The notes below the pieces were generated by a model, which saw only the letters and a list, made by a program, of their open reading frames with translations, was not told the DNA's origin and ran no database searches. 35,105 nt of DNA from IMG/VR virus record IMGVR_UViG_3300019776_000941, positions 1 through 35,105 of that record; one strand, given 5' to 3'. Source of the DNA: a virus. How positions within the stretch are numbered: position 1 is the first letter of the stretch; each line of letters begins with the position of its first letter. This document shows positions 115 through 28,862 of this stretch, piece by piece. Both the position numbers and the translations under genes were made by a program.

Positions 115-1083
115 TTAGTGTCTAAGTTTTAACTTAGAACCGTCAAGCTTCTTCATCTCATTCAGATATCCGCCAACAGGAGATTGATTCTCAACTGGTG
201 GTCTAGAAATGACTTCCTCAACAAGTGATTCTGTTTCAGGACGGTCAACGGCCTCAACGATCCGTCTTGTGACCTTTTCCTTAGCATCTTCGACTTGTTC
301 GGAAGTTTCCTTCTCGAACATCTCAACTACGTACTGATAGTTCTCTTGAATGTACTCGGGTGATTTACCTCTGAGTAACTTACTGACATATGCCTTAGTA
401 CTTTGTGGCATATCTTTTGTTTTTTCTTCAAGCAAAATTTTGGCTTCAGCGTTTTGCAACTTTGCGTTTAATGCTGTGTTAGCCTCAAGTGCTTCATTCA
501 ATTCCTTCTTTAAGGAATCGATTGTTGTCTTACCATCGATGAGAGCGTCTTTGATCTCACCATTGATAAATTCTTCATTAATACCAACAAGTTTACGAAT
601 CTCGTCAAGAACTTTGCGTGAGCGGATGTTCTCAACTGCTTCATTAACTTGTTTTGTTGGTACTACTTTTTCAAGATACAGATCCATGTAATTTGAAATC
701 TCGTCAACTAAACGTGAACGGAAGGATTCTGCTTCTTCTTTTAAAGTTGTTTCATACTTACTTACTACAGTCTCTAATTTAGCTGTATGATCTTCGTCGA
801 TCTTTGTAAGTACTGCTTTTAATTTTTGTGCATGATCAAAATCAATTGTCTCAACAAGCTTCTGAAGCTTTGCTGTGTGATCAGTATCGATTGACTCAAT
901 GAGTGATTCGAGCTTAGCAGCGTGGTCTTCATCAAGCTTTGTTGTTGCTGCTTCAACAGCAAGTTCTGCTCTTTGTTCTGCTTTTTCGTTTACGGCAGCT
1001 TCGAAGGCTTCGTGTACTGCGGTTAAGGTCTCTTCTGTGATGAGATCTTTGAACTGTTCTTTGAGAATTGATTTGAAGTCCAT
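115..1083 (-). CDS. 22: Prohead core scaffolding protein, T4 gp22-like
   Basis: This 322-residue, highly charged, mostly helical protein matches the T4-like prohead core scaffold, which fills the prohead during capsid assembly and is then digested by gp21. Residues 51-110 hold four tandem 15-residue repeats of the form D-x-D-H-x-x-K-L-x-x-x-(L/V)-x-x-(I/Y). A coiled-coil stretch follows at about 185-225, and a conserved RGKSPEY segment lies at 238-244. The N-terminus MDFKSILKEQ resembles the leaders of two other proteins in this window (starts at 3783 and 5454). An (L/I)xE site, ITE, lies at 15-17. The gene is downstream of gp21 and upstream of the probable capsid gene, as in T4. AATAAATA boxes stand 10-14 bases before the start. 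The family call is from memory of the fold and gene order and is fairly secure. Confidence 0.85.
   Translation of the reverse strand: MDFKSILKEQFKDLITEETLTAVHEAFEAAVNEKAEQRAELAVEAATTKLDEDHAAKLESLIESIDTDHTAKLQKLVETIDFDHAQKLKAVLTKIDEDHTAKLETVVSKYETTLKEEAESFRSRLVDEISNYMDLYLEKVVPTKQVNEAVENIRSRKVLDEIRKLVGINEEFINGEIKDALIDGKTTIDSLKKELNEALEANTALNAKLQNAEAKILLEEKTKDMPQSTKAYVSKLLRGKSPEYIQENYQYVVEMFEKETSEQVEDAKEKVTRRIVEAVDRPETESLVEEVISRPPVENQSPVGGYLNEMKKLDGSKLKLRH
754..933 (-). repeat. Four tandem 15-residue (45-base) repeats within the gp22-like gene
   Basis: The repeat units are DEDHAAKLESLIESI, DTDHTAKLQKLVETI, DFDHAQKLKAVLTKI and DEDHTAKLETVVSKY, with no residues between them. D1, D3, H4, K7 and L8 are kept in every unit. 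The period of 15 is close to two heptads plus one residue, which suggests a regular helical rod in the scaffold. The DNA copies have diverged, so this is an old duplication and not a recent slippage event. Confidence 0.85.
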
Positions 1084-1272: not shown

Positions 1273-2178
1273 TTATCTAGTAGGCTGTTGTTGGGCTACT
1301 GGAGCTTGGCCCTGTTTATAAGGAGATACTACATCTATTTTTCCACTTTTTAAAGCATTTTCTAAATCTTTATCTCCTACTTTATTCATACCAGGTTGTG
1401 GCATTTCTCCCCTAGGTGGATTATTTTCCCACTTCGCTTCCTTACAATGATCTCTAAGAGCTTGAACATTTTGAATTATACGATCTTGAAATGTTTGCAA
1501 ATCTGTACAGAATTTTATTTGTATTGCTTGATTCAAAACTTCTTGGGTGGGATTTAAAATTTTACGAACCTCATCAAAACTACAATTTAATAAATTGGGT
1601 TCATTATTAGGTTTTGTTAGTAAGCTTGTTCCTGGTGATTTTAATGCTACTATAGCTGCCTGAATTGCCTTTAATCCACCTTCTTGCTCAAATTTGTCAT
1701 TTTGATAATTAGTTACTACTAGTTGTGCTTTCGGATTATAGCAAAATGTCTGGGACCAACGATGATGACCATCAAGTACAAAACGACCATTTAATACTAT
1801 AACAGAACCAGTATCTACTGGAGCTCCGGTAAATATTTTTGCAAACTCTTGAGGTTTATCTAACGGATAAGCTAAAGAATTAGCTATACCTATTTCTTTT
1901 TGTGTTGGCCATAATTGATTAACAGCAATATTAGCACCTGGTGTTACCGCAATTTGATCGTCAGACTGATTACCATCCTGCATACCCCCTTTTATAATGT
2001 TTGCTATTCTTTTATCATCAGAGTATTTTTTTAACCACTGTACAAAAGGTATATATTTTCCACTTATAGCATTTTGATATGCTTGTGTAAACTGTGTTTC
2101 ATCCCCAGGAAACTCTTCTTCTTTTAAAAGAACACGCATGTAAGCTTCTTCTAAAAGTATTTGATCTTTCTTTTTCAT
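1273..2178 (-). CDS. ParB/sulfiredoxin-fold domain protein in the head cluster, candidate packaged protein
   Basis: This 301-residue protein has a ParB-like core: NQLWPTQKEIG at 87-97, then VIVLNGRFVLDGHHRWSQ at 126-143. DGHHRW is the hallmark of the ParB/Srx nucleotide-binding fold. I recall similar TQxEI...DGHHRWSQ proteins in other T4-like marine phages, of unknown function. The C-terminal half looks less conserved and ends in a Gln/Pro-rich tail. The first 22 residues include LEEAYMRVLLKEE, nearly the same as the leader of the acidic protein starting at 8463. They contain LKE (18-20), a match to the gp21 (L/I)xE cleavage rule. Lying between gp21 and gp22, it is a candidate internal head protein. 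A GATAAATA box ends 6 bases before the start and overlaps the gp21 stop. Nuclease or CTPase activity is not shown. Confidence 0.75.
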   Translation of the reverse strand: MKKKDQILLEEAYMRVLLKEEEFPGDETQFTQAYQNAISGKYIPFVQWLKKYSDDKRIANIIKGGMQDGNQSDDQIAVTPGANIAVNQLWPTQKEIGIANSLAYPLDKPQEFAKIFTGAPVDTGSVIVLNGRFVLDGHHRWSQTFCYNPKAQLVVTNYQNDKFEQEGGLKAIQAAIVALKSPGTSLLTKPNNEPNLLNCSFDEVRKILNPTQEVLNQAIQIKFCTDLQTFQDRIIQNVQALRDHCKEAKWENNPPRGEMPQPGMNKVGDKDLENALKSGKIDVVSPYKQGQAPVAQQQPTR

Positions 2179-2184
2179 ATATAA

Positions 2185-2192
2185 TATTTATC
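2185..2192 (-). promoter_or_regulatory. Late-promoter-like GATAAATA box before the ParB-like gene
   Basis: GATAAATA on the minus strand ends exactly 6 bases before the ATG at 2178 and overlaps the gp21 stop codon. There is no ribosome-binding sequence between it and the start. With T4-type spacing, transcription would start at or beside the ATG. Confidence 0.5.
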
Positions 2193-2862
2193 CGAGTTTA
2201 ATTTTATTAATAAAGCCAATTAAGGCTTCTCTTAAGAATGTATCTGTGCCATGTTTAGGCATGTTAGAAAGTTTTTCACCGAGTTGAGCTCTGGCTGCTG
2301 CTGAACATTCAATAATTGAACCGTCCGGACGAATCATATACTCTCTTGACTCCATGACAGACTCAAGCATGGCATTTTGTACTGATGGTTGGTGTACAAC
2401 ATCAAGACAGATAAGATGGAAATTTGAAACGTGCTTGGCATCAGCCATCTCTTGAATATTACCTAAAGCACGAGAAGAGATACCCATTTTAATTCCATCA
2501 GTAATAAGTGACTTAAGAAGTTGACCCATTGGTGTATTAAGCACTTGAGACTTACCCATGAAGTAATTACCATTCTGTTTTAGTTCTGTAACAAGGTGAC
2601 AGGCATTAACAGGGTTAACTTCTGTTGATTGTGGGTGATTCATTTCACCGATAGCTCTACGAGACTTGACCATTTCATCTGTATAACGATTAACTTCTGT
2701 AATCATTTCATCTAGTTTATAGATACGACCGTTTTGATTCTTTTGCTCGGCCATTAAGAATGGTCCGGTAATGTAGAGTTTTTGTTCTCCTTGACGGTTC
2801 TTTTCCTCGATCATGAAATCAAGTCCGTCATGGATATCTTCGACTAAAAATTTAAGTCCCAT
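2188..2862 (-). CDS. 21: Prohead core protease, T4 gp21-like
   Basis: This 224-residue serine protease of the T4 gp21 type cleaves the scaffold, capsid and internal proteins after (L/I)xE during head maturation. Landmarks in order are ITGPFLMAEQKNQNGRIY (31-48), GEMNHPQS with the probable catalytic His76, GISSRALG with the probable nucleophile Ser129 or Ser130, and LDVVHQPS around Asp154. The length is close to T4 gp21 (about 212 residues). It is followed by the ParB-like gene, the small core protein and gp22, so the 21-22 order is kept with two insertions. The portal gene does not precede it as in T4; an unknown 289-residue gene does. An ATTAAATA box lies 10 bases before the start. Confidence 0.88.
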   Translation of the reverse strand: MGLKFLVEDIHDGLDFMIEEKNRQGEQKLYITGPFLMAEQKNQNGRIYKLDEMITEVNRYTDEMVKSRRAIGEMNHPQSTEVNPVNACHLVTELKQNGNYFMGKSQVLNTPMGQLLKSLITDGIKMGISSRALGNIQEMADAKHVSNFHLICLDVVHQPSVQNAMLESVMESREYMIRPDGSIIECSAAARAQLGEKLSNMPKHGTDTFLREALIGFINKIKLG

Positions 2863-2913: not shown

Positions 2914-3783
2914 CTATTTTATATGTTTACTTTCAGATGTTTGTAATCTTTGTCTTATATGTAAAGGTAGCTGCTGCATATATTTTTTCGCACCAACATC
3001 AGGAAGTTCTCCGGTATCGTATTTAGCTTTTTGAGCTCCCGCTACACCGTGTTGTTTGGCCATAAGTTCAGCTGTTTTCTTTTCTTGTTCTTTTGTTGCT
3101 TTATTTCTTTTACCGGTTTTAAATTCAGTGTATGAAGGTAAATGTTTATCGGGTGTACCTTCTTTGTCTAATTCTGCTGGGTTTATAACATCAATAAAAT
3201 ATTCATTTCTAGTTTGTACAGGTACTTTAAAGTAATTAAATACATTTTCAATTGCATTATTATCTATTTGTTCTTGTGTTAACCAAAATGATAATATCTT
3301 TTTTTCAAGCCATATTCTTCCTGCGTTTTTAAAAATCTTAGTTCGAATACTAAGATTTAATTGTATTTTTTCTCTTTTAACAGCTTCATCTGAACCGGTC
3401 ATATTATGAAAGAATTCTTCAAGTTTATTACTTTTTATTAATTTTAAAGTTTGTGGGCTATTAAAAATATCTTCAACTACTTTACTCGAGTTTGGAATTG
3501 CGGTATCAGGTAGAGTATTAAATGCTAGTAGTAATCTTTTGTTTAATGCAAAACTCTTGAATTTCATTTTTTCTAAAGTTTCAACTAAATCATCTATCAT
3601 ATTCCAATGTGTTGTTGCAGGATTTTTTCCGTACATAAAAAAAGGCTCAACACCAGGAAGGGCGTGCAATGTACCAAATACATGGGCATCATTATCATTC
3701 CAGCGAGCTTTTTTCTTATCGGGCATATAAACCTCATCAGGAGACTCATTTAAAATTTGATTTACGATGCTATTAAAGTCCAT
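2914..3783 (-). CDS. Unknown head-region protein with a probable capsid-targeting leader
   Basis: I do not recognise this 289-residue protein. Its N-terminus MDFNSIVNQILNE matches the first 13 residues of the small basic protein that starts at 5454 and resembles the start of gp22. The leader ends in LNE, fitting gp21 cleavage after residue 13. The middle is helical and mixed in charge. The last 60 residues are rich in Lys and Gln, typical of DNA-contacting internal proteins. It is the first gene of the leftward group that contains gp21 and gp22, and starts opposite the rightward membrane-protein gene with only 32 bases between them. An AATAAATA box stands exactly 6 bases before its start. A packaged internal head protein is the best inference. 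Confidence 0.7.
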   Translation of the reverse strand: MDFNSIVNQILNESPDEVYMPDKKKARWNDNDAHVFGTLHALPGVEPFFMYGKNPATTHWNMIDDLVETLEKMKFKSFALNKRLLLAFNTLPDTAIPNSSKVVEDIFNSPQTLKLIKSNKLEEFFHNMTGSDEAVKREKIQLNLSIRTKIFKNAGRIWLEKKILSFWLTQEQIDNNAIENVFNYFKVPVQTRNEYFIDVINPAELDKEGTPDKHLPSYTEFKTGKRNKATKEQEKKTAELMAKQHGVAGAQKAKYDTGELPDVGAKKYMQQLPLHIRQRLQTSESKHIK

Positions 3784-3789
3784 TTTATA

Positions 3790-3807
3790 TATTTATTTGA
3801 ATAAATA
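3790..3807. promoter_or_regulatory. Palindromic two-way late-promoter-like element between divergent genes
   Basis: TATTTATTTGAATAAATA is an 18-base perfect inverted repeat apart from its central TG. It offers AATAAATA on the minus strand 6 bases before the ATG at 3783, and on the plus strand 8 bases before the ATG at 3816. It therefore looks like two back-to-back T4-type late promoter boxes. An operator-type binding site is the alternative. Confidence 0.5.
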
Positions 3808-3815
3808 TTGCTACT

Positions 3816-4700
3816 ATGTTTACAGCATTGTTAGCCTTTACGGCATTATTGGTCGCTGGGTGCGGAGCTTATTTTTCCGTGCTCGGTATTGCAACATTAT
3901 TCTCTGGTCACTTTTGGCAGGTGGCTATTATGGCGGGATCTCTTGAATTAGGTAAATTAGTCGCCACATCATTCTTATATCGTTATTGGAAGAAGATAAT
4001 TTGGTTTCTTAAAGTATATATGATAACAGCCGTTCTCGTACTCATGTGTATTACATCAATGGGTATTTTCGGTTATCTATCATCTGGGTATCAAGTTAAC
4101 GCCGGTAAAACAGAACTCATTGACAACAAAGTAGTATTAATAGAACAACAAAAGACAAATATTAAAAATGAAATTGACCAAATTAACTCGCGTATTACTA
4201 CGCTTAATGAGGCTCGTAAATCTCAGGAAGCTCGTCTCCCGGAAATGTCACGCGCTGCAGCAAAGCCAGTCTATGAAGATATGGCAAGAGCTGCAGAAGA
4301 GATCAAAGGTTTAACAGCTAGAGTTCAACAACTTCAAACAACTCAATTCGAAAAGGATAATGAACTCATTACACTTAAGACCGATAGTAATTCTGTTCAT
4401 GATATTGGTACATTTAAGTTTGTAGCTGAATCTGTTGGCTTACCTCTTGATACAGTTGTAAAGATTTTTATTATCTGTATTGTAGCTGTATTCGATCCTT
4501 TAGCTGTAGCTCTAGTATTAGCTTACAATATAGCTAGAGGCGGCTCAATGTTAAAAGAAACTAAATCAACTAAACAGCTTTTAGTGGATGAACCTATTCC
4601 AGCTCAACCTAAGACAAAGACAATTATAACAGAAGAGATTATTGAAGAAGTTGTTCCTGATTCAGGAAAGACTAGAAAGTATTCAGGTCATCAGTCTTAA
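3816..4700 (+). CDS. Four-helix membrane protein with a long periplasmic or cytoplasmic coiled coil (DUF4407-like layout)
   Basis: This 294-residue protein is one of two rightward genes. Hydrophobic segments lie at about 3-29, 33-56, 64-90 and 213-240. A charged, heptad-rich coiled coil fills about 98-190. The last membrane segment carries VFDPLAVALVLAY, and a 55-residue acidic/basic tail follows. The arrangement of three helices, a coiled coil and one helix resembles DUF4407-type proteins, and similar FDPLA-containing membrane proteins occur in marine phages, to my recollection without a known role. It could be an envelope-remodelling, superinfection-exclusion or lysis-associated protein, but nothing shown here decides between these. 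It is inserted against the grain of the late operon and interlocks at its 3' end with gp4 through a shared TTAA. Confidence 0.8.
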   Translation: MFTALLAFTALLVAGCGAYFSVLGIATLFSGHFWQVAIMAGSLELGKLVATSFLYRYWKKIIWFLKVYMITAVLVLMCITSMGIFGYLSSGYQVNAGKTELIDNKVVLIEQQKTNIKNEIDQINSRITTLNEARKSQEARLPEMSRAAAKPVYEDMARAAEEIKGLTARVQQLQTTQFEKDNELITLKTDSNSVHDIGTFKFVAESVGLPLDTVVKIFIICIVAVFDPLAVALVLAYNIARGGSMLKETKSTKQLLVDEPIPAQPKTKTIITEEIIEEVVPDSGKTRKYSGHQS

Positions 4701-5155
4701 AGTCCTAAATGCTTTTCGGTTAGAATAGTAAATTCGTAACCTTTTTTCTTACACCATTGCTCGGCTGCCTGCCACTTTGCTCTATTTTTCACGTACTCAG
4801 CCTGGCGTCTTAATAGAGCTTTTGTGTTCTTGCCTGGTTTAGGGGGCTGGGTTTGAATAGAAGGCTTAATTTCTATAAGATATTTTTTAAATTCACCGTT
4901 TTTTGTTTTAAGAGTTATATTAGAATCAACAAAGTAACGAGACACTTTTCCAGTAAGAGGGTTTTGATAAGGTACTATAATTGATTCTGAACCCCACGAT
5001 ATTACAGCTGGGTTATAATCACACCATCTAAAGTATTTTAATTCGTAAGATGAGCGATAAAGGATAGGTAGAGTACCTTGGTACTTTTCCGGATGATTAG
5101 GCTTAAAGATGCCTTGTTTAAACTTAGATGTTCTTTTACGATTCACTTTTAGCAT
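4697..5155 (-). CDS. 4: Head-completion nuclease-fold protein, T4 gp4-like
   Basis: This is a 152-residue protein when started at the ATG at 5153-5155. It matches T4 gp4 (gp50/65), a head-completion protein with an endonuclease-like fold that acts on filled heads. Visible landmarks are YRSSYELKYFRWCD (33-46) with Glu38, RYFVDSNI (73-80) with Asp77, and LIEIKPSIQT (93-102) with Glu95-x-Lys97. Together they form the E...D...ExK pattern of restriction-endonuclease folds. YVKNRAKWQAAEQWC (121-135) is typical of the family. A longer frame starts at 5179, but the inner ATG is preferred: it overlaps the upstream stop (ATGCTAA) and gives the usual basic N-terminus. Its stop interlocks with that of the convergent membrane-protein gene. 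Confidence 0.85.
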   Translation of the reverse strand: MLKVNRKRTSKFKQGIFKPNHPEKYQGTLPILYRSSYELKYFRWCDYNPAVISWGSESIIVPYQNPLTGKVSRYFVDSNITLKTKNGEFKKYLIEIKPSIQTQPPKPGKNTKALLRRQAEYVKNRAKWQAAEQWCKKKGYEFTILTEKHLGL

Positions 5156-5454
5156 TTCCAGCGTCTTCTTGCAGCACAACCTCTTGTGTCTTTACCTGCA
5201 CAACCACCGGCTGGAATCCATGCTTTACTCCGAGCACAGAAGCTTTTTCTGCGCTTAGATGCTTTAGAGCCTTTTTTAACTTTACCGGTAACAGGAGCTT
5301 TAAGATTAGAGCCAGTAGCGCGATTATATTTTGCTCTACCTTTAGCTGTTAATCCACCACCACGACTTACAGGTAATTTTTCCCCGCGTTTAATAGACAA
5401 ACTAGGAGCTTTTTTTTCTTCTAAAATTTCTAATACAATATTGTTAAAGTCCAT
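5149..5454 (-). CDS. Small basic four-cysteine protein (DUF6321-like) with a capsid-targeting-like leader
   Basis: This 101-residue protein is very rich in Lys and Arg. Residues 1-13, MDFNNIVLEILEE, match the leader of the 289-residue protein (MDFNSIVNQILNE) and end in LEE, a gp21-type site. The remainder holds GGLTAKGRAKYNRATGSNLK (33-52), KASKRRKSFCAR (64-75) and a C-terminal ARRRWKC. I recall this GGL..KGR..YNR..GSNLK...SFCAR pattern from small phage and bacterial proteins grouped near DUF6321, with unknown function. Cys73, Cys85, Cys93 and Cys101 could bind a metal ion. Its basic nature and placement between neck and head-completion genes suggest an internal DNA-associated head protein. 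Its stop overlaps the gp4 start. Confidence 0.75.
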   Translation of the reverse strand: MDFNNIVLEILEEKKAPSLSIKRGEKLPVSRGGGLTAKGRAKYNRATGSNLKAPVTGKVKKGSKASKRRKSFCARSKAWIPAGGCAGKDTRGCAARRRWKC

Positions 5455-5462
5455 AATAGTAA

Positions 5463-6320
5463 TTATCCAATAAAGAACATAGCACCAGTGACATCTTCGT
5501 AAGTATTTTTTAACTCAGCTTCTAAAGCGTCTCTTTCAGCAATACCTTGAGACATAAAATCTTGATAGTTGACTTGACCACCGCCAAAGAGGTTTGTACC
5601 ACCGAACTTACCTCTTACGTTACCTACAGTAACCTTCGAAAGAGCTAAAGCATATCTATAAATCCATCTTTCGTTAATAAGATCTTTAACTGGTCTTTCT
5701 AAATAACAACCAACAACACCAAGATAAGTCTGTTCAGGAATAGGTTCTGGAATGATTCTAAGAATCTGATTTTTAGGATCAAATCTAAAATGAGGAGTCA
5801 TTGCAAGGACTTTTGTTCTAGTGTCAATAAATCCTTTTAATATTTCCCAACTGACAAGATCAAATCCGAAATTGCCAATCATGTAGCTAGAATAGATTTG
5901 CTGGGCCATGGCCTGCTCTAGCGTAAAGAGGGTGTTAATACCTGTAGTTTCACCGTATGTAAAAGAGAAACAATCAAGTACTCTTCTATATGAATTTAAA
6001 TCATAATCGTAACCAGCTGATAGACCGTTTGTAACTGTTGTCATTTCTGAGGTTTGATTAATGAGGGTAGCTACATTTATCCCGACCCCTCTTGTATACT
6101 TTGTAGAATCAAACACTAAGAATTCTTCTGTATACCCGGCATACTTAGTAAAAAACTCCATAGCTTGGGCAATACAGTCATATATCTGTTCATTAGCTAT
6201 TTCAACGTTAACTAAAGGCTCGCCCATTTGTCTACGAATTCTTTGTGCCAAGGCATCGTAACTCGTAATAACGGAGTTAAAGTTTGTTGAGCCTGATGTA
6301 TAACGTGGTAGTACGTTCAT
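5463..6320 (-). CDS. 13: Neck protein, T4 gp13-like
   Basis: This 285-residue protein resembles the neck (head-tail connector) protein gp13 of T4-like phages. The typical start of the family is visible: a short basic helix, then MGEPLVNVEIANEQIYDCI (32-50), followed by EFFTKYAGYTEEFLVFD. T4 gp13 is 309 residues, so the size fits. The middle region has aromatic-rich segments and the C-terminus is a helical tail ending in MFFIG. It is followed by gp4 and preceded by the gp14-like gene, so the neck and head-completion genes are grouped. An ATTAAATA box is 5 bases before the start. The assignment of gp13 rather than another neck component rests on memory of the family. Confidence 0.68.
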   Translation of the reverse strand: MNVLPRYTSGSTNFNSVITSYDALAQRIRRQMGEPLVNVEIANEQIYDCIAQAMEFFTKYAGYTEEFLVFDSTKYTRGVGINVATLINQTSEMTTVTNGLSAGYDYDLNSYRRVLDCFSFTYGETTGINTLFTLEQAMAQQIYSSYMIGNFGFDLVSWEILKGFIDTRTKVLAMTPHFRFDPKNQILRIIPEPIPEQTYLGVVGCYLERPVKDLINERWIYRYALALSKVTVGNVRGKFGGTNLFGGGQVNYQDFMSQGIAERDALEAELKNTYEDVTGAMFFIG

Positions 6321-7695: not shown

Positions 7696-8463
7696 TTACT
7701 TGAAAAACTCGCCTTTTTTTATTGTTGATTTAGCAGCGTGGCTCTTTGTATTTTGAAGAGATTTATCAAATGATTTTGCCGGTTTAAGCTCTGGATCTGA
7801 TTCAATGTCTCCACCATGTGCTTTACCACCATGAGGCTTTACTGAACCTACTTTATTGTTCTTATTTTGAAGAATTTTACTCTTATCACCGAGTGGCTTT
7901 AATTCAGTAGCTTCACCCATTGGCTTTTCTTCTTCTGATTCAATTTCTTCCTCAGGTGTTTCTTCATCACCAAATTCTGCTTCTACCTCTTCGGTTTCTT
8001 CCGAACCTGTTTCATCAGAAATTTTATCAAGAATGTTTTGAAGATGGTCCATTACAGCTTTAAGATCAGAAACGAGATCAGATACTTCATCTTTTTCGCC
8101 TTCTAGTTCATCAACCATGTCTTCATTTGAAGTTGGTACTTCAATTTCCATTTCCATCTCTTCGCCCATTTCTTCGTTAATTGTTGCTTTGAAAAGCTTC
8201 TCAAATGAGCCTTCGAATGATTTTTTAGGTGCTTCCATAGAGTCGTTTAATTTTTTTGGTTCGCCAGTAAGAATTTTTGTACCTTCAGCTTCTTCTGGAT
8301 TTTCTAAATCTTTTTTAGCTTTTTCAGCACCACTACCAGCTACTAGACCTACTTTACCACCTTTGGCGATTTCTTGTTTTCCGGCTGGGACTACTACGTT
8401 ATCTTTTTCTTCGTTAAGAAGAACTTGTGATGCGTAAATTTCTTCGAGAGGATTTTTCTTCAT
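7696..8463 (-). CDS. Acidic core-type protein sharing a leader with the ParB-like protein
   Basis: This 255-residue, low-complexity, strongly acidic protein has no enzyme motif I recognise. The N-terminus MKKNPLEEIYASQVLLNEE matches the leader of the ParB-like protein (LEEAYMRVLLKEE) and carries LNE (16-18), a gp21-type cleavage site. FEKLFKATINEE at about 87-98 may offer a second (I/L)xE site, INE. A Glu-rich region (about 100-185) includes a short coiled coil, SDLVSDLKAVMDHLQNILDKI. The last 70 residues are Lys/Gly/His-rich and end KSTIKKGEFFK. This composition suits a prohead core or internal head protein. The gene is the last before a strong terminator and lies between fibre genes and neck genes. 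An AATAAATA box is 12 bases before its start. Confidence 0.7.
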   Translation of the reverse strand: MKKNPLEEIYASQVLLNEEKDNVVVPAGKQEIAKGGKVGLVAGSGAEKAKKDLENPEEAEGTKILTGEPKKLNDSMEAPKKSFEGSFEKLFKATINEEMGEEMEMEIEVPTSNEDMVDELEGEKDEVSDLVSDLKAVMDHLQNILDKISDETGSEETEEVEAEFGDEETPEEEIESEEEKPMGEATELKPLGDKSKILQNKNNKVGSVKPHGGKAHGGDIESDPELKPAKSFDKSLQNTKSHAAKSTIKKGEFFK

Positions 8464-10741: not shown

Positions 10742-13700
10742 TTATGGATTACCAAAGTATTTCATACGAGTATTATCAAATTCATTAATTGGTTCATCAG
10801 CAAATGTAATTAAACCAAATATTGTTGGTGTCGGTGTCGGTGTAGGTGTTTGAGTTGGTGTAGGTGTAGGTGTTTGAGTTGGGGTAGGTGTAAGAGTCGG
10901 GGTTGGTGTCTCAGTAGGTGTAGGAGTTGCATTAGGTAAAGTTGGAGTAAGGGTCTGAGTAGGTGTTGGTGTAAGTGTAGGCGTTGGGGTTATGGTAGGT
11001 GTAGGCGTTGGGGGTATGGTAGGTGTAGGTGTCAGGGTTATAGTAGGGGTCTGTGTAGGTGTAGGTGTTGGTACAGGCGGTGGGGGAGTAGGATCTATTG
11101 ATATAAGCTGTAAACGGATACCACATTTCCCGGTAGTAAGATTATAAGAAGTGACGCCAAAGCGAACAGAGCCAGTATAGCTATTTAGATATCCAGCGTT
11201 AATACGTCTTATGACACCGGTTTGACCAGGTGTTAATAAACCGGCATGTACTGCTGCCATAGGTAAATAAGAATTGTTTGTATAAGTTGTAGTACCGTAA
11301 ACAAAACCCCCGGTGAGGCTACCGGTAACTCTTATATCGCTGTAATTTGGACAAGTTGGAGTAGGCGTTGGAGTAGGTGTCTGAGTAAGTGTTGGTGTCT
11401 GTGTTATAGTGGGCGTTAATGTTAGGGTAGTTGTGGGTGTTGATGTCTGAGTAGGTGTAGGTGTTGATGTCTGAGTAGGTGTAGGGGTTGGTACTATAAC
11501 AGGGGTAGGTGTGGGTGTGGGTGTTTGTGTTGGAGTCGGGGTAGGACGAGGTCTTGTCGTACGGGTAGGGGTAGGAGATGGTGTAGGTGTTTGTGTAGGG
11601 GTAGGTGTTGTACAAGGGCTGTTAAAATAGTCTAATAAAATTAAAAAGTTTTCCCAAAGATATTTTAAGCTACGGTTAATAACTGTACTTGTTACAATTT
11701 CATTTTGACCTATAAAAATATCTTCTTTTTTATATTTAGGTGCTTTATATTCTTGACAATACCCTTGCTCTTTATTATAAAATAAAGAATTTCTAAATAT
11801 TTCTATATTATCCCAGAGACGTTGAAGAGCCCGATTATAAACCCAATCTTGTACATACTCATCTTTGTTAATAATAAGGTTTTCTAAATTCCAATATGTT
11901 TTTGGTAGATTACTTTTAAAAGAATTTATCTTCATTAAATCCAACGCCTTTAAAAGTTTATCATTACTCGTTAATAAAAGATTGCAGTACTCATCATGAA
12001 AAACGCTTTTTATATTATCTAAACACTGTGTTGTTTGAAAAATATAGCCTGCAAACACGCCATTTCGAAAATATTTGCAAATTTGTTCATTACCAACACA
12101 GTAAATAATTTCTCGATTATTATTCGTATTAATTTTAGTTGGTGCTGAATTTAATTTATTAACTAGGTAATTGAAAAGATATTCGCCAGTATAGGTGTAG
12201 ACATAAACGATACTATTGTCTAATAATACATGAATTTGTTTTTGAGAATCAACACAAAGACTTAAAATCTTATTTTCAACAAATCTTGTATCTTTTATTG
12301 TATTAAGCCATGTACCAGCACCAGTAAATTGTTTAATACAGTCATTACCTGTATCACAAACCCAAATATTATCATTTTGATCAATATGAATATCTTTTGG
12401 ATTTAAAAAGCGTTTCTTAGCATCTGGACCACCAAAACCGCCCCACGTTGTTAATATACGCCAATTTTTTCGCGGGGTATTGAACGTATAATTTAAACAA
12501 GTCACTCGAGCTAAATCTCCGTCAAGTACATATAAATTACCTGTACTATCAATCGTTATATTTTGAACATTAATAAAAGGTGTAATCCCATCAATAGTAC
12601 TCTGTATATCAAAATACTGTGCTCTATAATCAGATGATAAAACCCGTATTTGAGTTTTTAAAGCAGCATATATTATATTATTTTTAGAAACTGCTCCAAC
12701 CCAACTACACGGAGACTGTACAACACAATTTATATTTTCATAATCACTACCTAAACCTGGTAAATCTAAATTCCAATTTTTTTCATTACAAATAATAAGA
12801 GGAAACGCATCACAAGGTTCGTACCTCCAGCGTTTTTCATACTCATTTCTTTTTTTGGTCTGTTTCCAAGTTATAACTTCTTCAGCATTAATTGCTTTTC
12901 TTAATTTCCATTTCCATTCCGTACAGTATTTCTCTATACAATTAGGATTACCCTTTGAGATTTTGCAAAAATGTTGTTCCCATAAACCACAATTAGCAAA
13001 AAACCCTGTATCTTCAAAGCTTAAAGGATCTGCTGAAAAAACATCTGCCCATGTAACGGGTTGTGTAATTTGTGAGGTACTACAGTCTAAATCTTGCCAA
13101 GTCCATACTGGGCAAGGATCAACACCTATAACTATATCAGGCCCTAACCAACCTTGTAATTTAGTATAATCAGCAACATAAATTCTGCTTTTATCTTCTA
13201 AGTAATTTAAGTTATCGTTGAATTTTTTAATACAGGAATTAAAACTATCTTCTATACCAATTTCATTTGCACCAACAAAGGGTTGAGATTTCCAAGGTAA
13301 ATTTATATCTGTTTCGAGAATTTGATATTTTTCTGGTACTACGTCATGATAGTTATCTGTAACATATACAATATTAGAAAGAGTGAAATTTAAAGGTGGT
13401 TGATTATTTACTAAATATCCAGTTGCTTGAATAGTTTTAAAACCTACAGTACTATAACTAACAGTAAAGTTATTATAAATGTTATCCCCGGTAAGATATA
13501 AAGTATTATTTTCTCCAAAATTTATATAAAGAGCTGTTAATGCTTCAAAATTATTTGAAATATTTTGGAAGTAAATAGGGGTATTTGTAAGATTGTATTT
13601 ATTTGGTGTATATAAAGCTAAATTAATACGAGAAGGTACTAAAATTTGTTCTTGTTCTTGTAGAATGGTAGTTTTTGCTTTCCAGTCATAAGGCGGGAAA

Positions 13701-15385
13701 TTAATAATACTTGTAGCCGATCTTTCAACCGAAAGAGTAATTAAATTATCATTAAATTCACTAGCAGTAAATGGTATTAAACCTTGTTTATTAAAATTAA
13801 GAGTGTAGTAATATTGTTCAAGTGGGTCTGAAGTTATATTATTTGTTGTTGTAACAGTCCAATTTGCAGAAGAAAGGTTCCAGGTTATATTTGTTGCTGT
13901 ACAAGATGCTGGGGATGTTAAAAATAAATCTGCAGATAATGTACCTTCGTTACGCCACTTTTTAGGGTAGCTTGCTGAACATTCAATTGTTCCCCATGAC
14001 GATAAGGCTCGAGCGGTTTGACCTGACAAGCAGTTTTCAAAATTTGACCACTTCCATGCTAAACCGTACTTGTCATAACAGATATCTAATTCTTGAGGGG
14101 AAGAAAGAGCTGTGTTAAATGTTGCTAAAAAGGCAAGTTTACTACCATCAATAGGTAAATAAAGAGGGTTTAGAGAACCTGAGTCAAATATATATGCTAT
14201 AGAGGGATATGGTATAACTGAAATACTTTCTTTAAAACGGGTGTTGGTTAAGAGATCTTCATTATAAATATTTACAGTAGAAATATAATGCGGATAATAA
14301 ATCGGTACTCCCGTATAGTCATTTAAATAATATTTTGGTGCTGTTGATAAAAATAGATTATCAGTTAATTGTAATGAAATAGGCAATTTTGGATAAAAAC
14401 CTACTTCGGATGTTATTTTAGTATAAGCGGTATTAGTGGTAGCGGATGTTACTGAAAAGGTATTTGTTAAATTCCCTACAGACCAAATATATTTTTGAAC
14501 TTCAGGTATAGAACGGGCTGAAAGATATATTGTTTCAGTATGCCCTTCACCAAAAAAGCTTAACCCGGGGGATAGAGTGTAGTTTTGAGCACTTAAACTA
14601 ATTTGAGTTTTATGGTCTTTAAAGAATGATCCTGGGTATGCTATAAAATCAGCGTTTCCTAAAAAATAAGGAACAAAACGAGCCGTTATAGTTTTTGTAA
14701 CTGTATGTGGAGTAAACCACCCTCTCTGAGCCGATAAGTATGCAAAAGGGGAAGAAACAGCAGAAAGTTCAAATCGTACCGTACACAGTGCAGGCGTTGT
14801 GCTATTAAAATTTGTTGTTACGTCATTACTACTCTGTTGAATGTTATTTATAAAAAGTTTAGTTGTATGAAAACTTGAAGATATTGTTAAAAACTCAGTA
14901 GTAGCTCCGTTCACTTTAACTGCTGCACTATACGGAATTGTAGAAGTAAGTCGATAAAAAAGGGTATTAGCTTTTGTATTTTCAAAATTTATATATGCAT
15001 CTAAATCAATACTCGGAAAGGTATCATATAAATGTTTATATGTAGTAGATGTAAGAGGTGTTCCGCCCGAGTAAGATGAACAAGATATATTAAGAGTACA
15101 TATTTTATAAAAAGACGTGCGATAATTATACGTATCGGCAGAAAAATAAAATATTAAAGTATTGAATAGATTTGCAGGCTGTGCTGTGAGTTGACTATAT
15201 TTATTACCGCTTAAGTCTGTAGCGTATGCAAAGGTTTCTGGGAATCGCCAAACAATATTATTGTTAGAAGTAGCTATGATAGGAGTTGACCCGCTTGTAT
15301 CTAATAGAACCGCGGTTAAACTACGAACAAACGGTTCGTTGTTTATACGAATGGCGCTAATTGCAATGCTACTTAAAGATGACAT
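10742..15385 (-). CDS. Giant tail adhesin with a Cys/Trp module, NHL propeller and an LCCL domain between Pro/Thr linkers (1547 aa)
   Basis: The parts, in order, are as follows. About 1-750 is a long beta-rich, Ser/Thr/Asn-rich stretch, probably tandem Ig or PKD-like sandwiches. A Cys/Trp-rich module follows at about 754-868, whose core CIEKYCTEW...[14 protein letters not shown] (816-859) recurs in the 470-residue protein. Residues about 896-1153 are NHL-type propeller repeats such as [21 protein letters not shown] helical segment follows (about 1153-1250). Then come a Pro/Thr/Gln linker (about 1257-1344), an LCCL-like domain (about 1345-1430, [20 protein letters not shown]), a second Pro/Thr linker (about 1431-1520) and a 28-residue end with [15 protein letters not shown]. 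It is probably a surface-binding appendage of the tail. Its exact location in the virion is not shown. No signal peptide is seen. Confidence 0.8.
10826..11095 (-). repeat. Second Pro/Thr-rich linker tract (about 90 residues)
   Basis: A degenerate repeat on the minus strand encodes runs of (P-T)n with occasional Q, L and I, such as [10 protein letters not shown]. It lies between the LCCL-like domain and the C-terminal 28 residues of the 1547-residue adhesin. It is a likely extended, flexible stalk. The DNA is a GGTGTAGGTGT-type low-complexity tract that keeps other frames open, producing false genes. Confidence 0.9.
11095..11352 (-). other. LCCL-like domain within the 1547-residue adhesin
   Basis: Between the two Pro/Thr tracts, about 86 residues read [20 protein letters not shown], then [17 protein letters not shown], then [17 protein letters not shown]. 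The G-T-x-x-Y-T-x-x-S order, AAVHAGL, G-x-x-G-V and Y-x-G-S-x-x-x-G-V-x-S are the conserved features of the LCCL fold, known in animal extracellular proteins and in some bacteria. Cysteines are at its edges (CPNYSD and GKCGIRL). The match is by pattern and looks good. Confidence 0.7.
11353..11615 (-). repeat. First Pro/Thr-rich linker tract (about 88 residues)
   Basis: A tract of (P-T)n with Q, S, R and V interruptions, such as [19 protein letters not shown], joins the helical region to the LCCL-like domain. It has the same style as the tract at 10826-11095 but differs in detail (it contains RTTRPRP and PVIVPTP), so the two are related low-complexity linkers rather than recent copies. Confidence 0.9.
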
Positions 15386-27493: not shown

Positions 27494-28134
27494 AGAATAA
27501 AATACGGGTTGTCATAATTGAAGGTCTCATACTCTTCAAAACCCATTCCATTAAATTTAAATACAATTCCGTCTTTATCAACTGGCTTTGAGCCCTCAAA
27601 GGCCACAGAACAAAATGAATCTTCGTTCATATGAAGAGAAGAGCCGGCTTTGACTAAAAAGATATCCCCGGTCTGAGAATTATAGATCCAGGAAGTTAAT
27701 AATCCTTTATACTTTTCGTATGTCTGTTTAAAGTTACCATTAGTCCAGCACAAATGATAAGGAATCATAGCAGAGTCAGTATTAAAAGCCATACATGTAG
27801 CATATGAATTTAGTTCGTAAAAGTTTTGAATGATACCATTATGCCCGACAAACCAATGCTTGTAGGAGAAGGGATGTGTAGTCTTAGGGGAGAAGTCTTG
27901 ACTTGTTGTATTAGTGGGAGCTCTTGAATGAAACAAACAATAGATAGGAAATTCTTCAGTCTCTTTTAATTGCTTTTTAAGATAATCTAATTCAAAGACT
28001 TCCTTCTGTTTAAGTAGTATAAAATTATTCTTAGTAACCCCTAAGAACCCAGATGACTGATAACCTCTATCAAGTCCTAATTTATAGAGGTCGTAAGCTT
28101 TGTTAATGTCACAAGCGCCAGATATTGCACACAT
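27490..28134 (-). CDS. Class II glutamine amidotransferase, stand-alone partner of QueC
   Basis: This 214-residue protein is an N-terminal-nucleophile glutamine amidotransferase. Cys2 would be exposed after removal of Met (MCAISGACD). HSRAPT (69-74), FVGHNGI (95-101) with the Asn99-Gly100 oxyanion pair, and FNTDSAM (117-123) are the expected glutaminase motifs. There is no synthase domain, so ammonia must pass to a partner. The gene starts inside the stop codon of queC (TAATG). In several phages and archaea a Gat-QueC fusion inserts nitrogen into a 7-deazaguanine (to make archaeosine or its DNA form). Here the two halves are separate genes, which is the more informative point. The amide acceptor is inferred. 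Confidence 0.85.
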   Translation of the reverse strand: MCAISGACDINKAYDLYKLGLDRGYQSSGFLGVTKNNFILLKQKEVFELDYLKKQLKETEEFPIYCLFHSRAPTNTTSQDFSPKTTHPFSYKHWFVGHNGIIQNFYELNSYATCMAFNTDSAMIPYHLCWTNGNFKQTYEKYKGLLTSWIYNSQTGDIFLVKAGSSLHMNEDSFCSVAFEGSKPVDKDGIVFKFNGMGFEEYETFNYDNPYFIL

Positions 28135-28862
28135 TAAGACATTATAGGCTGACAGCCGTATTTGTTCCAGTCAATATCTACAGCATACTTAACCGGGTCA
28201 ATTAACTTTGCCATAATCCATCCCTGAATACGACTAGAACAGGCCGGACAGGTGCCACAGGCTATCTCTTCTCCATTATAGCAGGTTAAAGTCTTAGAGA
28301 AGTCAGCACCTAATTCAATACCGTACTTAAAGATCTCTTCCTTAGAGAGCTTAATGAGCGGTGCCTGTACTTGAATTCTATGAAGCCTGTTAAGAGCTAA
28401 GCACTGATTAATCCTTTCAAGAAACAGACTAGTGCCATCCCAGTGCCCGGAAGTATCATCCACTAGAGCGGCTCCATACAAAACAGTATCACAGCTTCGG
28501 GATTCAGCATAAGCAGCTGCAATTGAAAGCATTGTCATATTACGATTAGGTACGTGAGACTTGTTCTGGGCCTCCCCGATAACATCTCTCATCTTTGGTA
28601 CATCGATGTCTGGGTTAGTAAGAGCAGAAGAGTCTGCAAGCTTAGCGTAAAAAGTTAGATCAACAACCGTATGCTGTTTAATTTTTTGATCCGGTCCAAC
28701 ACCTAAGTCAGTTGTATAGTTAATAGCCTTATCAATCTCAAGCTTATGACGCTGGTTGTAATTATAGGTTAAACAATAAACCTCTTCGAAGTTCTTAATA
28801 GCATGATGAAGTATTACAGTACTATCAGCACCACCAGAGAAGATAACTACACATTTAGACAT
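28134..28862 (-). CDS. queC: 7-cyano-7-deazaguanine (preQ0) synthase QueC
   Basis: This 242-residue protein matches QueC, which uses ATP and ammonia to convert 7-carboxy-7-deazaguanine to preQ0. It has the PP-loop FSGGADST (8-15), YNYNQRHKLEI (33-43), VPNRNMTMLSIAAAYAE (104-120), and GAALVDDTSGHWDG (130-143). The zinc-site cysteines are Cys194, Cys202, Cys205 and Cys208 in the C...CGTCPAC block. Length and motif order are normal for the family. It starts a five-gene cassette with tight overlaps (queC, amidotransferase, glycosyltransferase, DUF366, gp62). No FolE, QueD, QueE or transglycosylase (DpdA) lies in this window, so the rest of the route must be elsewhere or supplied by the host. Confidence 0.92.
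   Translation of the reverse strand: MSKCVVIFSGGADSTVILHHAIKNFEEVYCLTYNYNQRHKLEIDKAINYTTDLGVGPDQKIKQHTVVDLTFYAKLADSSALTNPDIDVPKMRDVIGEAQNKSHVPNRNMTMLSIAAAYAESRSCDTVLYGAALVDDTSGHWDGTSLFLERINQCLALNRLHRIQVQAPLIKLSKEEIFKYGIELGADFSKTLTCYNGEEIACGTCPACSSRIQGWIMAKLIDPVKYAVDIDWNKYGCQPIMS

Follow-up and report, generated by a model that had tools for sequence, protein, structure and literature searches.

An uncultured virus record of 35,105 bases, analysed here over its whole length and referred to as the window, carries a T4-like head cluster on its minus strand in which two proteins of 289 and 101 residues open with a common short leader, and this raises the question of what such a leader does and how far it is bound to the protein behind it. 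Read along the minus strand, the cluster comprises a head-tail adaptor (5463..6320; phrog_211, E=3.8e-25), the 101-aa protein (ORF 5454..5149), a head-closure protein with a TnsA-like fold (4697..5179, listed from a TTG, so that the real start may be further in; phrog_218, E=1.1e-48; PF08722, E=5.2e-19), the 289-aa protein (ORF 3783..2914), the gp21 prohead protease (2188..2862), a 301-aa protein, a 49-aa protein and the gp22 scaffold (115..1083; PF25623, E=4.7e-9). A sequence-only reading had placed gp21 next door to the 289-aa protein, and the PF03420 match at 2862..2188 bears this out (E=4.4e-28; phrog_207, E=1.8e-56); the best gp21 matches among cultured phages are cyanophages, at about 36-40% identity. 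On the opposite strand within the cluster lies a gene for a coiled-coil membrane protein (3816-4700, +), which is kept there in relatives. Elsewhere, the window encodes a 1547-aa protein with long repeats (10742-15385, −; 10 letters, not shown) that is probably a tail fibre, and an ORF of QueC type by eye (28134-28862, −) that could hint at modified phage DNA.

The two leaders, MDFNSIVNQILNE on the 289-aa protein (3745..3783, −) and MDFNNIVLEILEE on the 101-aa protein (5416..5454, −), are identical at 9 of 13 residues and both hold L11-x-E13, with a predicted gp21 cut after E13 in each case. When residues 2-13 were scored, this pair reached 39, the top value of all 465 pairs of window N-termini, while the best pair per shuffle of the N-termini had a median of 16 and never exceeded 31 (2000 shuffles). 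A position weight matrix derived from the leaders of other phages gave the start of the 289-aa protein a score of 15.2, which 0 of 300,000 random peptides attained, and the next-best of 156 ATGs tested, outside the two leaders, scored −11.6. That the two N-termini are alike by chance or simple paralogy, as might be supposed for genes of one cluster less than 3 kb apart, is hardly credible, since shuffled N-termini never reach the observed pair score, the leader motif recurs before many other bodies, and the bodies of the two proteins do not match, the last of which led us to reject plain paralogy. Moreover, the DNAs of the two leaders show 11 mismatches in 39 bases, including three synonymous codon changes, so that the peptide appears to have been kept rather than recently copied as DNA.

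The bodies behind the leaders are indeed unrelated, as had been claimed. The predicted mature body of the 289-aa protein (276 aa; 2914..3744, −; predicted pI 9.2) is an orphan, for which we found no match in 790 proteins of related loci and nothing in Pfam, PHROGs, the phage collection (tblastn), PDB sequences or IMG/VR (peptide patterns), and the AlphaFold model built from its sequence alone is too poor for use (mean pLDDT 38). Most gp21 loci hold no gene at the corresponding position directly upstream of gp21, and the 289-aa protein is therefore dispensable. Where this position is filled, the occupant can differ, as indicated by locus L108, where a 226-aa protein bears MNFNSIVNELLYE on an unrelated body, and by L094 and L103, where a 101/106-aa protein has a leader of a second class, MLKDQKLIAEAY. 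One 217-kb relative encodes a protein of 297 aa (L172:10434-11327, −) that starts MDFNQIVRNVLFESPD and has SPD after the predicted cut as does the window's 289-aa protein; we rejected it as a homologue, as the likeness covers the first 26 residues only (13/26 identical) and the rest is unmatched.

The 88-aa body of the 101-aa protein (5149..5415, −; predicted pI 11.6) is a clear member of DUF6321 (PF19846; E=1.9e-18), its 67.3 bits exceeding the family cut-off of 28.5. No PDB entry matches the AlphaFold model of the 101-aa protein (mean pLDDT 80), and neither mature cargo matches an IPI, IPII or IPIII family in Pfam or PHROGs. Both mature proteins of the window are basic, as are the four computed cargos of relatives (pI 9.5-11.2). 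DUF6321 homologues elsewhere are mostly leaderless, beginning in other phages right at the domain (e.g., MAKKKGPSLSVGRGEKLP), or form the C-terminus of a protein of about 500 aa.

The gene behind the adaptor provides the clearest view of how leader and cargo are combined. A search for gp21 relatives yielded 56 loci, some of which may be near-duplicates of one another, and 32 of them include the adaptor; slot leaders were gathered by cargo signature plus an M[DN]F start. In 28 of these 32 loci the gene next after the adaptor opens with the leader, and in L136 and L138 an inserted ORF separates the leader gene from the adaptor. Bordered upstream by the adaptor and downstream by the head-closure gene, the slot holds DUF6321 cargo in the window and 11 other loci, in 15 loci a DUF5754-like domain, whose match to PF19058 (E 4e-4 to 0.03) does not reach the family cut-off, and a further subtype in L114 (phrog_7595, E=1.5e-17, the same PHROG as the DUF5754-like cargo). 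Identical 13-mers stand before both DUF6321 and DUF5754-like cargo. Between the window and L084, DNA identity is 89% upstream, 95% in the leader and 55% in the cargo, and the corresponding values for L091 and L090 are 88%, 97% and 55%; identity thus falls to about 55% behind residue 13, which places the exchange boundary at the leader end and therefore at the predicted cut site.

Additional genes accompany the slot in some relatives. The T4 Alt protein is a head-packaged ADP-ribosyltransferase, and L097, not the window, encodes an extra 268-aa leader protein first in the slot (MSRFEQLVELILE; L097:4843-5649, +) that may resemble it, with a weak similarity to PARP/ART that does not reach the Pfam cut-off. 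Around the slot we also noted ORFs that look homing-endonuclease-like by eye (L103:4530-5447, +; L103:2647-3276, −; L097:6068-6652, +), and inserted ORFs of this kind could aid cargo exchange.

Across 32 distinct leaders, M1, F3, V7, L11 and E13 are invariant and residue 10 is I, L or V, giving the consensus M[DN]FxxxVxxILxE, whereas position 12 is free (E, T, L or F in slot leaders, N and Y outside the slot). The same spacing is seen in distant DUF6321 leaders, MTYNQLVEQLLTE in L005 and MQCLFETRFNEVLNE in L004. T4 gp21 cleaves after L/I-x-E, and in T4 IPIII residues 4 and 7 act in targeting and residues 8 and 10 in processing (PMC9026906). Aligned at the cut (T4 sequences from NC_000866), these four positions correspond to V7, I10, L11 and E13, so that P7 and P4 of the leader match the T4 targeting positions and are hydrophobic in the window as in the shared IPII and IPIII leader, MKTYQEFIAE/A (a slash marks the cut here and below); both phages encode gp21. 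The consensus is not identical to MKTYQEFIAE and is also longer, but identity with the T4 leader is not essential, because the leaders of T4 IPI and Alt differ as well.

We consider it probable (about 0.8) that the leader is a capsid-targeting propeptide of the kind known from T4, which gp21 removes from a head cargo that is exchangeable and mostly basic. Less in keeping with this reading are the CFE of the presumed gp23 site in the window clade, the greater length and different sequence of the leader in comparison with that of T4, the leader-bearing L004 fragment, in which no gp21 was found, and the dispensability of the 289-aa protein. Packaging of the leader proteins would then proceed through binding of the hydrophobic residues F3, V7 and I10 to the prohead core, formed by gp22, whose related N-terminus may bind likewise, and the leader would carry the protein behind it into the head during assembly. 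The gp21 encoded alongside would cut after L11-x-E13, a step that we infer from LxE conservation, and the basic mature protein, either the 88-aa DUF6321 domain or the 276-aa orphan, would be freed within the head, would probably stay with the DNA and would be injected upon infection, where it may act in host takeover or DNA protection. The leader would thus serve as a constant address, with the cargo behind it swapped between phages.

It is also conceivable that the leader targets the prohead core and normally stays on the protein, with L11 and E13 kept as part of a binding helix. F3, V7 and I10/L11 would make one helix face, E13 could cap the helix, and the AlphaFold model of the 101-aa protein places a helix, at low confidence, at residues 3-12. 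We regard this as unlikely, since position 12 varies between the invariant L11 and E13, as expected for gp21 P3-P1, and the boundary of cargo exchange coincides with the predicted cut. In addition, two cultured T4-like phages, C48C1 and HTVC008M, have ELTE/A and PLEE/A immediately ahead of the same phrog_7595-like domain, although their N-termini are otherwise unlike the leader.

If the leader is a targeting peptide removed by gp21, it may be expected at N-termini and in the company of the protease. The motif was found 42 times at N-termini and five times elsewhere in 330,927 residues, and at least nine unrelated body clusters stand behind this one leader in the set examined. A search for the leader over related phage genomes, proposed in the earlier reading, retrieved it before further unrelated proteins, with DNA-pattern searches of IMG/VR placing it at the gene starts of proteins of 269, 185, 121, 111, 105, 61 and 43 aa, among others. 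The gp21 gene was present in 12 of 18 leader contigs and 5 of 30 control contigs (Fisher p=0.0013), and among contigs of at least 30 kb in 7 of 8 and 4 of 15, respectively (p=0.009), p-values that are optimistic because of near-duplicate or clade-mate contigs and one weak gp21 match (L221). The controls, sorted by judgement, were out-of-frame and internal matches, a repressor-like ORF and two other doubtful ORFs; they include matches such as MDFNVPVNAILRE and MNFDESVVSILPE, which we rejected as gene starts because 18-65 codons separate them from the preceding stop and their methionines appear to be internal. The leader-bearing DUF6321 contigs L003, L005, L124 and L126 all have gp21, whereas gp21 was found in 0 of 30 contigs with leaderless DUF6321, many of them fragments. 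For L004, whose DUF6321 gene does bear the leader, no gp21 was found within the 43-kb fragment, which also encodes a nucleotidyltransferase-like protein with a CTS-like leader, MKFDRYINFILE/S (L004:3736-4338, +). The proposal that the leader is a portable capsid-targeting signal is thus supported by its N-terminal specificity, the number of unrelated bodies behind it, its exchange as a unit, the retention of the gp21 residues and the association with gp21.

These distributions also bear on whether the leader might dock to the adaptor, neck or terminase instead of the prohead core, the proteins then being minor neck or packaging proteins. The slot does sit between the adaptor and head-closure genes, and in S-CRM01 and S-CREM2 the protein encoded between gp16 and gp17 has a DUF6321-type domain fused to it. 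However, the same leader is also found next to gp21 and, in larger genomes, at distant loci, and the LxE rule together with the gp21 association fits the prohead, which makes docking outside the core rather less probable still than an uncleaved leader.

The gp22 scaffold relates to targeting of cargo to the prohead core in a partial manner. Its N-terminus had been described as following a related pattern, and its start (MDFKSILKEQFKD; MDFKSILKEQFKDLITE in the feature annotation) does rank second and third in the pair test, with scores of 22 and 21 against the two leaders, but the likeness is restricted to the front part and there is no LxE at residue 13. The situation recalls T4, where the gp22 start MLKEQLIAE/A resembles the IP leader, as MDFKSILKEQ of the window gp22 resembles the cargo leader; unlike in T4 gp22, the conserved N-terminal sites in the window are LKE9 and ITE17, which belong to 12 conserved [LI]xE sites of the protein. 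Among other proteins, gp21 carries LVE8 close to its own N-terminus, invariant in three relatives, and a 255-aa acidic protein (7696..8463, −; pI 4.6), whose N-terminus MKKNPLEEIYASQVLLNE is conserved in relatives, is a possible further substrate. For gp23, the window clade has WCFE at the presumed cut site, which is not LxE, and the sister clade L132-L135 has WCLRE or WCLQE, so that LxE specificity is not confirmed by gp23 in the former (CFE) and is confirmed in the latter (LRE, LQE). In L084-L135, gp23 N-termini show a hypervariable linker after the presumed cut site.

The set of leaders recognised by the sequence-only reading was incomplete, as a second class on the neighbouring 301-aa protein had been missed. 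This protein starts MKKKDQILLEE/AY (leader at 2146..2178, −, with a less certain cut site), and its body (1273..2145, −), a candidate second-class cargo, belongs to no Pfam family and forms its own body cluster. The second leader, M-KDQ-LLEEAY or LIAEAY, includes I-A-E/A or L-E-E/A, as in T4, and stands before at least 13 unrelated bodies, this one included. It was found in the window, L096, L103, L106, L108, L122, L150, L160, L162 and L165, and in L103/L102 and L096 it heads bodies of 178 and 186 aa that are unrelated; the motif occurs 16 times at N-termini and 0 times elsewhere in the 330,927 residues. Since each tag stands before many unrelated proteins, M[DN]FxxxVxxILxE and M-KDQ-LLEEAY may be two portable tags of one head that load cargo sets to different places or at different stages, a suggestion that we make tentatively.

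Virion data from a cultured phage touch on the packaging step. Both gp137 (coverage 4.1%) and gp154 were detected in the S-CREM2 virion proteome (PMC10665884). The gp137 protein has a DUF6321-type C-terminus and is not tagged like the window's protein, and gp154, a cytidylyltransferase of the nucleotidyltransferase-like kind (L286:18109-18969, +), begins with the CTS-like MKNFSSFLTE/A. These virion proteins lend what we take to be indirect support to head packaging of leader proteins.

The closest known counterparts are IPI, IPII and IPIII of T4, in which a short common N-terminal leader ending in L/I-x-E precedes otherwise unrelated basic proteins (PMC9026906, PMC3012670); in T4, Ip1-3 block type IV restriction enzymes (PMC12373910). 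Unlike these, the leader described here has 13 residues and the consensus M[DN]FxxxVxxILxE, its cargos are not homologous to the T4 internal proteins, and the window's candidate cargo genes lie within the head cluster, whereas those of T4 lie at two ip loci. That one portable leader can head changing cargo was described by Repoila et al. (1994; cited in PMC12373910) for T-even phages and is also stated in PMC3012670 and PMC9026906. The system resembles the variable ip genes of these phages, with one address, many cargos, polymorphic positions and cargo genes recognised by their leader, and differs from them in its other, uncultured T4-like lineage, in two cargo families alternating in one slot and in a second leader class. 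Hence the principle is known in T-even phages, and the tag, the lineage and the cargo list are new; our literature search found no paper on the M[DN]FxxxVxxILxE leader or on DUF6321.

To our knowledge, little has been learnt about phage head cargo beyond T4 and a few giant phages, because these proteins diverge too quickly to be traced by homology. A conserved tag that follows a clear rule offers a way to list candidate injected proteins of uncultured phages, and the tag searches so far list more than 10 candidate cargo families. Should the two-tag reading be true, either tag could reveal head cargo of such phages from sequence alone. DUF6321 and the DUF5754-like domain are two widespread families of unknown function, and their alternation in one slot suggests that they may do equivalent work.
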